Below are positions 53,229-55,325 of a stretch of 64,000 nt of DNA, in pieces (positions within the stretch are counted from its first letter, which is position 1; every line of letters starts with the position of its first letter). The notes under the pieces were generated by a model, which saw only the letters and a list, made by a program, of their open reading frames with translations, did not search any database and had not been told where the DNA came from. A program made the translations under genes and the position numbers. The stretch comes from Sedimenticola sp. (GTDB lineage: Bacteria; Pseudomonadota; Gammaproteobacteria; Chromatiales; Chromatiaceae): positions 62,001 to 126,000 of the forward strand of contig JALSRN010000048.1 of NCBI GenBank assembly GCA_026984735.1, given 5' to 3'.

Positions 53229-54443
53229 GGCTGTGGACTCCGTGTTGTTGTTCTTCAGGCGAAGCAAAAACGCGCAATTGGAACCGTGGAACTGGAAAAA
53301 GTTCCCCGCGGAGCGGCTCGTCGGCCAGCGCGAAGACAGGCGGCGCGGACGCGACCCGGCGGTCAGGAGGCCGTGCAGCTCTCGTCCACGCAGGCGAGGC
53401 AGCGACAGGGGGCGAAGGAGCGGGCGTCGGCCTCCTCCATGGGCAGCCGCAGATCCGCCGGCACCCGCCCGGCCAACAGGGCGCCCTCGGGCAGATAGGA
53501 AAAGAGCTGGTCGTAGCGGCGCACCTCGTGCTGGTTCACCCGACGATGGATGTGGGAACGGTTCAGCTCGCGCGGGTGGCGCAGCCCGGCGGTGGCGATG
53601 ATGTCGGCGGTGCGCGCACCGTGGCGGCGTGGAACCGCGCCACGCGGCGAGCCTTCTCTTCCACCACCAGCCCGCGGTAGAGGCGCGGATCCTGGGTGGC
53701 CACGCCACTGGGGCAGCGGTTGGTGTTGCAGGTGAGCGAATGGACGTAGCCGAGCGCGAACATCATGCCGCGCGCGCTGTTGCACAGATCCGCCCCCAGC
53801 GCCATGTTCTTCACCAGATGGAAGCCGGTGAAGATCTTGCCCGAAGCGACCACCCGCACCTCCTCTCTGAGACCGAAACCGATGAGGCCGTTCACCACCA
53901 GCGCCAACGCCTCGCGCAGCGGCATGCCGATGGAGTTGGCGTACTCCAGCGGCGCCGCGCCCGTCCCCCCTCGCCCCCGTCCACGGTGATGAAATCGGGA
54001 CGGATGCCGGTCTCCACCATCGCCTTGCAGAGAGCGAGAAACTCGCCCTCCCGGCCCACGCTCAGCTTGAATCCCACCGGCTTCCCCTCCGAGAGGCGGC
54101 GCAGCCGTTCGACGAAGCGCATCAGCTCGATGGGGTTGGAGAAAGCGGTGTGGGCCGCCGGCGACTCCACCTTCACATGGGGCTCCACTCCGCAGATCGC
54201 GGCCACCTCCGGAGTGTTCTTCTCGGCCGGCAGGATGCCGCCGTGGCCGGGCTTGGCGCCCTGAGAGAGCTTGATCTCCACCATCTTCACCGCCTCCAGG
54301 CGGGCCAGCTCCCGGAAACGCTCCGCGGAAAAGCGGCCCCGCCGGTCCCGGCAGCCGAAATAGCCGGTGCCGATCTGCCACACCAGATCGCCGCCGTGCT
54401 CCAGATGGTATTAACCCGGCACCAATCTATGCCATCCTCAGGG

Positions 54444-54534
54444 CGTCAGACAGAAGTCGGAACGCGGCGCGCTTCGCAGGCAATGGTGATTCCATCGGCA
54501 AGAAGCGCAACAAAGTGCTGGCTTCTGTCTGACG
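54444..54534. repeat. inner inverted repeat of the MITE (first stem)
   Basis: CGTCAGACAGAAG at 54444-54456 is exactly inverted at 54522-54534, giving a 13-bp stem with a 65-base loop within the element. Confidence 0.85.
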
Positions 54535-54564
54535 TCCCGATCTTTTTGAAATTCAATCGGTTCG

Positions 54565-54662
54565 GTCACCACGAGCGTCCCCGTGGACGTCGTTGCCGCA
54601 CCTCGACAGGGAACGACCCTGCCTTCGGCGCGGCGCCTCGCCACGAGCGCGCTCGTGGTGAC
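54565..54662. repeat. inner inverted repeat of the MITE (second stem)
   Basis: GTCACCACGAGCG at 54565-54577 is exactly inverted at 54650-54662. The right arm also belongs to a 16-base perfect palindrome, CACGAGCGCGCTCGTG (54642-54657), so two alternative folds are possible. Confidence 0.85.
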
Positions 54663-55325
54663 TGAGGGTGACATAGATTGGTGCCGGGTTAATAGGGAGT
54701 GATGCCGCCTTCGCCGGTGTTGTGCGCGAAGCCTCCCTGCCGGGCACCGAGATTGAGCGCCTGGATGGCGGGGGGACTGAGCGCACCGAAGCTCATCGCC
54801 GAGATGTTGAAGATGCTGGCGGTGTAGGGACGGTCGCACTGGGAGCCTCCCACCACCACGCGAAGATCGGGCTCGACCTCGGCCGGATCGAGGAGCGACA
54901 GCGAATGATCGATCCATTCGTAGCCGCTGCGGTAGGCGTCCACCCGGCTGCCGAAAGGCACCGTCTCCACCGCTCCCTTGGCGCGCTGGTAGACGATGCT
55001 GCGGAACATCCGGTTGACCGGCATGCCGTCGGTGTCCGACTCGACGAAATATTGCCGGATATAGGGACGCAGCCGCTCCATGAGCCAGCGCCCGCGCCCG
55101 AAGAGGGGGAAGTTGGGGCGGATGGAGTGGCGCTTCTGGAGCCGGTCGTAGAGACCCACGCCGGCCAGGGGCAGCAACGCCACCAGCGTCCAGAGAATGA
55201 CGGGGCGGAACGGCGCCAGCAGCGCCACCGCCAGAAAGAGCCCGCCGAACACCTTGAAGAAAGTGGAGCGCATCGGCTTCCCTCAGGCTTTCCCAAGAGA
55301 CCGGCGGGACGGCCGCTTCATTGCG

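Follow-up and report, generated by a model that had tools for sequence, protein, structure and literature searches.

A widespread family of TA-bordered mobile elements whose two inverted hairpin arms appear to be conserved as folded single strands

Nezha and Stowaway are MITEs derived from IS630/Tc1-mariner transposons. MITEs are usually read as passive remnants with an interior that is free to drift. The element described here resembles the IS630/Tc1-mariner-derived MITEs in size, in its TA duplication, in its terminal inverted repeats and in its presumed movement in trans, and its terminal 11 bp recur in IS630 elements from the same bacterial family. It differs from them in that its interior bears no parental remnant and in that its core is recognisable across taxa with differing ends.

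The insertion, its host gene and its copies

The insertion lies in a window of 64,000 nucleotides, the whole stretch of DNA that was analysed. The element proper has a length of 282 bp (54411–54692) and is bordered by TA on each side; the features of the locus are listed in Table 1. A first-pass annotation made from the letters of the sequence had described such a 282-bp element, with 21-base perfect ends and a TA duplication, inside a glutamate-synthase-like gene, and this description was confirmed from the coordinates and from matches to the Pfam family Glu_synthase (PF01645). The inverted repeats are perfect over the outermost 21 bases, and the further, imperfect extension of the ends was borne out as well (33 nt at 94% with the TAs counted). 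The two inner inverted repeats that had been given as 13 bp are present at greater length, one at 54438–54463 versus 54515–54540 (26 nt, 81%) and the other at 54562–54586 versus 54641–54665 (25 nt, 84%), and the feature reported as a 16-base inner palindrome is a near palindrome at 54638–54661.

When the flanks were fused via a single TA, an open frame (..GGITPYHLEHGGDLVWQIGTGYFGCR..) was obtained across the glutamate-synthase-type gene, with PF01645 matched in order, in consecutive stretches, on either side of the element. Removal of the element thus restores the host reading, as had been claimed, and the claim that a TAA stop is supplied at the element's edge also proved right: the frame of the interrupted gene ends there. 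We conclude that the 282-base insertion is genuinely a piece of mobile DNA that entered a gene at a TA site. Two more frame changes, besides the insertion, were seen in the same gene in a three-frame reading (window 53560–54000); either the gene is decayed, or the assembly is imperfect at these further frame changes.

Table 1. Features of the insertion and of the interrupted gene (window coordinates).
Feature	Position	Strand	Basis
Entire insertion, both TA copies included	54409..54694		Inverted repeats and copies elsewhere
Left TA target duplication	54409..54410		Sequence and empty-site reading
Right TA target duplication	54693..54694		Sequence and empty-site reading
Left terminal inverted repeat, starting TTAACCCGGCA	54411..54440	+	Terminal 11 bp identical to IS630 ends
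Right terminal inverted repeat	54664..54692	-	Inverted-repeat search and alignment of copies
Arm 1, hairpin with two conserved internal loops	54441..54537	+	Model R1, 94.7 bits
AT-rich linker separating the arms	54538..54563		Alignment and consensus fold
Arm 2, inverted relative of arm 1	54564..54663	-	Model R1 on the minus strand, 49.7 bits (L001:1658-1753)
Interrupted glutamate-synthase-type gene, 5' part up to the TAA supplied by the element	54689..55273	-	PF01645, profile positions 65–107
Continuation of the glutamate-synthase-type gene past the element, followed by more frame changes	53892..54383	-	PF01645, profile positions 119–240

The annotation had named multiple copies at TA sites as a check, and such copies were found: the element matched at 11 places in its own genome (23 match rows, merged by hand) and in 13 of the 55 genomes searched, its own included. 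The 11 places comprise two full-length copies (286 bp with the TAs, 98% identical), six shorter or degenerate copies and three fragments; four of the six shorter copies have paired ends, measure 203–219 bp and lack part of the right arm. A scan of 49 loci for paired ends gave 284 bp as the commonest end spacing (13 loci). TA was present at both start and end in 22 of the 32 paired-end copies from the own genome and relatives, the other 10 being without it; this count is biased, the ends having been chosen by a TA-containing pattern with up to 3 mismatches. No common coding frame was found among the 21 full-length copies, the longest start-to-stop frames of which (28–78 codons) lie on differing strands and at differing positions. 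As is characteristic of MITEs, the elements are short and multi-copy, carry terminal inverted repeats and a target-site duplication, and contain neither a transposase nor any other coding frame.

An extra insert of some tens of bases, in part with a small hairpin of its own, was observed within arm 1 at five loci (L075, L095, L091, L092 and L107). In the draft genomes G394 and G265, several contigs terminate inside or beside an element; the family thus appears to interrupt assembly, and the copies counted there may be too few.

Arm architecture and strand-specific wobble pairs

The window element folds better than all of 200 dinucleotide shuffles on both strands (z −14.2 and −16.0). In the 21 full-length copies, aligned regardless of structure, the consensus fold consists of a terminal-repeat stem and two hairpin arms of about 97 nt, mutually inverted, with conserved internal loops and situated about 30 bp inward of the ends. 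Of the cells of this alignment, 96.0% are paired (78.9% in shuffles), 63 of the 103 pairs have changed on both sides, and the covariation score is 0.483 versus 0.173, a value reached in 0 of 500 shuffles. Pairing drops to 32–43% when the partners are slid by 1–3 columns, a comparison that favours the structure because this was derived from the same alignment, in which many copies are closely related.

Arm 1 and arm 2 are inverted relatives: R1, a covariance model built on arm 1, matches arm 2 on the opposite strand. Concerted evolution of the arms was considered and rejected, core likeness being 0.65 within an element and 0.66 between opposite arms of different elements. With likeness within an element no greater than between elements, the arm duplication looks old. 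A reading of arm 1 as an intrinsic terminator was also discarded; a T run follows the arm in the window but is mostly missing from related copies. As to the linker, the short-linker elements L112 and L111 have their arms separated by a small hairpin of GGG/CCC, of the CCCTTCGGG type, and in TTAACCCGGC-type elements the linker is mostly 27–30 nt long.

Sequence conservation is concentrated in the internal loops. In a set of 114 arms, positions C23, A25, G26, G27 and C28 on the 5' side and A69, A70, C71 and G75 on the 3' side are 96–100% conserved, as are A60 and A61 of the second internal loop (96%), while most stem positions vary. Loop conservation is weaker, and still recognisable, in the phylum-wide set. 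Arm 1 of the window departs from the consensus at A24, A25 and C73 (CGCGG for CAAGG, and A for C73), and with these core positions lost the window copy may be derived or may stem from a dead lineage.

The arms were compared with the terminal repeats by their wobble pairs. Palindromes that are kept by DNA repair are expected to show G·T and A·C equally often, whereas selection on a folded single strand is expected to produce an excess of G·T on that strand. The outer 20 pairs of the 114 distinct arms, each read in its own orientation, contain 153 G·T and 30 A·C. These arms are what is left of the best 150 of 175 matches once 34 rows that overlapped with a better one, a row carrying a long insertion and a duplicate had been taken out. 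In 35 two-arm elements, the left arms gave a G·T:A·C ratio of 52:8 and the right arms one of 40:10, each on its own strand, and the terminal-repeat stems of the same elements gave 24:26, that is, no bias. The terminal repeats thus constitute a built-in control without strand bias, and it is the interior that is the conserved part of these elements.

The excess persisted when the arms were thinned to less than 80% identity (38 of 54 favour G·T, 3 of 54 A·C) and at 70% (20 of 28 and 1 of 28, respectively). The 44 arms that lay outside model building gave 48:9; G·T predominated in 27 of them and A·C in 5. Both arm alignments, A3 and A4, had been fitted to the model, and sequences from which the model was built are among those of A3; in the plain MAFFT alignment A1, 28:10 distinct G·T:A·C events were counted for the arms in their own orientation and 5:12 for the terminal repeat. 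Arm orientation was assigned as the better-scoring strand, and in most cases the loops decide this by tens of bits; it is unlikely that the orientation was set by the wobble itself.

These counts bear on the possibility that the family is an ordinary MITE in which template-switch repair keeps the palindromes perfect, so that covariation arises with no selection on structure. The process itself is a known one, which can create and maintain hairpin stems according to the available part of PMC8794818, and it suits the terminal repeats, which covary without a wobble bias. It predicts no G·T excess, however, of the kind that the arms show on opposite strands, and internal loops with mismatches, in fact the best conserved part, would tend to be erased by it. 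We therefore consider this account improbable; template switching explains the terminal repeats better than the arms.

The suggestion in the first-pass annotation that the element could fold into a structured nucleic acid held up in the shuffle folding, in the covariation, which exceeds that of shuffles, and in the strand-specific G·T excess, the last two being the marks expected of structured RNA or single-stranded DNA. A G·T excess on each arm's strand is not predicted by palindrome repair alone. Selection appears to act on each arm as a folded single strand, perhaps as RNA, with one arm to each DNA strand. The inner hairpins look conserved in this folded form, which is unexpected for ordinary elements of such kind.

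Terminal repeats, target sites and the IS630 link

The family elements are mostly 255–285 bp long and have terminal repeats of about 30 bp. The two-arm plan was found within terminal repeats of very different sequence, namely TTAACCCGGC, CTAACCC, CTAAGACAAACG, CTGAGACAACCC, GTGGGCCAAGCGG, GTACTCTTTCAAGG, GTGTACTGC, GGGCCTGTTC, TACCCAAACC and others. TA borders both ends in 27 of the 34 elements with clear terminal repeats and is missing on at least one side in the other 7; for this count the ends were located regardless of TA, one of 35 elements was set aside as weak, and several elements came from one genome. Control dinucleotides at the same offsets were found 5 times for AT, once for GC and never for CG, AA or TG. 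The distance from TA to arm is 28–34 nt, and 30–31 nt in 17 of the 27 elements. One complete genome contains 22 elements with identical 21-bp ends, 19 of them with TA on both sides (262–263 bp, 12 distinct sequences); a search of this genome for longer elements with the same ends was negative, and the IS630 elements found in it end differently.

Among 91 distinct insertion sites, selected for TA and an inverted repeat, the target CTAG was counted in 20 of 34 G-starting and 8 of 28 A-starting ends (raw counts, the register of A-starting ends being ambiguous) and in none of the listed contexts of C- and T-starting ends. CTAG is a target preference of IS630 according to the title of Tenzen and Ohtsubo 1991, as cited in PMC2170065. 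At L371:1314-2502 (Azotobacter chroococcum), a CTAG-bounded IS630 element abuts a family member; the left end of the latter lies at the CTAG of the IS630 element, but its end sequence is not shared with it.

The second check named in the annotation, an IS630-type transposase gene with matching ends, was borne out in two genomes of the family, with 11 terminal bp matching; no such gene was found in the own genome. The transposase of locus L053, one of those from the genus, matches the NCBIfam model transpos_IS630 (NF033545, 217 bits), and its element ends GCCGGGTTAATA. Relatives of this transposase at E≤1e-60 were found in 6 of 194 genomes of the bacterial family. Ends were sought at 12 such loci. 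Three of them (L055 from one genome, L056 and L061 from a second) proved to be intact elements, 1091–1100 bp long, in which TA followed by TTAACCCGGCA stands at both ends; no such pair was found at the remaining loci. The terminal 11 bases of these three elements are identical to those of the window element. A stretch of 16 bases, TTAACCCGGCAACCAA, is common to the IS630 element L055 and the genus element L086, and a variant end with CCTGG is found at the IS630 remnant L054 as well as on elements from further genomes of the genus. At L053:330-375, a palindromic repeat that is unrelated (GGGGACGGAGGG...CCCTCCGTCCCC) precedes the IS630 remnant. For this end type, a MITE moved by an IS630 transposase is supported, not proven.

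The match of element ends to an autonomous element is confined to the TTAACCCGGC end type and to 11 terminal bases, and no cognate insertion sequence was found for the other end types tried. DDE_3 genes are scarce among carriers: 0 of 1 for the own genome, 2 of 15 genomes of the genus (own included), and 3 of 11 and 5 of 16 genomes in two further sets of carriers, so that carrier genomes do not as a rule hold a cognate transposase. In the DDE_3-bearing carriers of the last two sets, the transposon ends differ from those of the element or were not found; the DDE_3 locus L248, for example, has the end TTAACCCGGCAAT, whereas the elements of the same host end CTAAGACAAACG. DDE_3 was absent from six TTAACCCGGC-type carriers outside the family (G262, G265, G329, G402, G434 and G509), and our confidence in the explanation preferred below is lowered because of these six genomes.

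The arms are absent from the IS630 loci: no R1 match at E≤1 was obtained in 10 of 10 loci, 5 of them with both ends determined. These loci accordingly provide no parent of which the MITE interior would be a deletion remnant; such an interior is lacking in many accepted MITEs. A resident autonomous partner with extended ends was sought with a 21-bp pattern in one complete and one draft genome and with a 13-bp pattern in a second complete genome as well, and no pair of these ends 0.7–3 kb apart was obtained. Nearby paired ends lay about 240–285 bp apart, and some ends were solitary or tens of kb apart. Two widely spaced +/- arm pairs (L184 and L233) each had a nearer partner, and L140, a 1-kb candidate for an autonomous element, seems to consist of two element remnants with an unrelated gene between them.

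The explanation that we prefer, and to which we give about an even chance, is that the insertion belongs to a phylum-wide family of non-autonomous transposable elements, with arms selected as folded single strands and with mobilisation by an IS630-type transposase. IS630/Tc1-mariner transposases would cut and paste the element at TA through its ends, as the one end type with matching IS630 elements suggests, and each arm would be kept by selection for working as a folded single strand on its own strand, RNA being the likelier form. Because the arms lie on opposite strands, a transcript from either direction would include one arm in its working orientation, and the direction of insertion would be of no consequence to the element. 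As to its role, we favour the view that the arm is an RNA module by which the host would tolerate the insertion or a host factor would recognise it. More broadly, and with somewhat less than even confidence, we propose a phylum-wide superfamily that is characterised not by its ends but by two strand-specific folded modules in inverted arrangement. Such a pair would be an orientation-proof device of RNA (or single-stranded DNA), with loops kept across Pseudomonadota and ends that changed repeatedly, perhaps to suit the available IS630-type transposase.

G·T is well tolerated in DNA hairpins also, and single-stranded DNA therefore fits as well as RNA. One rival account, which we regard as possible though rather unlikely, is that the arms work as hairpins of single-stranded DNA that arise on the lagging strand or in the course of transposition and serve as targets for a recombinase or a replication factor; each transposon end would then consist of a terminal repeat and a sub-terminal hairpin, inverted by nature. 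The inverted arms and their steady distance from TA do resemble transposon ends, and the loops are retained while the terminal repeats differ greatly; on the other hand, the IS630 loci are armless, the three intact same-ended elements included, and the loci inspected (at most about 8 kb each) included no autonomous version in which a gene lies between two arms.

Gene context was evaluated for the 19 copies of one complete genome by rough longest-frame gene calls. Fifteen of them lie outside called frames and 10 between divergent genes, some 15–26 nt before a start, as would suit a host-beneficial regulatory RNA that spreads as a MITE, for example in the leaders of neighbouring genes. Many copies, decayed copies and an in-gene insertion look selfish, and we hold such a benefit to the host to be very unlikely. 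Under the preferred reading, a mobile element selected for folded arms, a testable question is raised: what such an element gains from a folded module, of RNA or DNA, that is present in both orientations.

Distribution and comparison with known systems

Arms were surveyed with R1 within the phylum, Pseudomonadota, 10–11 candidates being scored per genome and the E-values being rough. At E≤1e-4 they were detected in 102 of the 369 class genomes, spread over 79 of 272 genera, and at E≤1e-5 in 61 of the 398 genomes sampled from the phylum, spread over 40 of 213 genera; 31 of these 61 lie outside the class, as counted by hand. With 102 of 369 genomes of the class positive, the family is common enough that it may affect the intergenic annotation and the assembly of many genomes. 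The arm-core pattern matched 103 stretches in the named genome collection; among the matches listed (80 of the 103), all bear the names of Gammaproteobacteria or of taxa included in them. Family members occur in Pseudoalteromonas, Azotobacter and Pseudomonas replicons. These relatives were obtained with other queries; among plasmids no match to the window element was found, and one broad plasmid query matched only sequence lying outside the element. Phage records gave no match to the element, viral contigs none to the exact core pattern, and E. coli genomes none to the family member L364.

In a scan of ten loci against Rfam (E up to 1), no match above thresholds was found. Inside the elements, matches were of the miRNA type only and below gathering scores, the best being MIR1151 in L077 (44.4 bits versus 90). 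No description of the two-arm family was found among the matches listed in the literature searched, the scope of which excluded subscription journals and ISfinder. Likenesses to integron attC sites and to bridge RNA were weighed and set aside.

ERIC, which we take to be RU-1, is presumably flanked by TA. ERIC, RU-1 and similar enterobacterial repeats are likewise short, palindromic and mobile (PMC2759123 and PMC2229807, in the parts available); RU-1, at 127 bp (PMC2759123), is set apart by its description from the two-arm elements of mostly 255–285 bp. QMITE1 and QMITE2 of Coxiella are likewise long palindromic MITEs, there with transcripts, and QMITE2 has relatives in other Proteobacteria; as far as the available text of PMC5896051 describes them, they are set apart by the length of QMITE1 (about 400 bp) and by direct repeats of 2–4 bp that are of other types. 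REP, BIME and REPIN sequences and the R-families of P. fluorescens (PMC2718517) also have many intergenic copies and hairpins. The sizes listed for them range from 50 to 352 bp; in the accessible part of that paper none is of 255–285 bp, and a two-arm plan and a TA duplication are not described. The family is large and apparently unnamed, and we place it with the MITEs, as one that has an unusual conserved interior, rather than in a new class of element.
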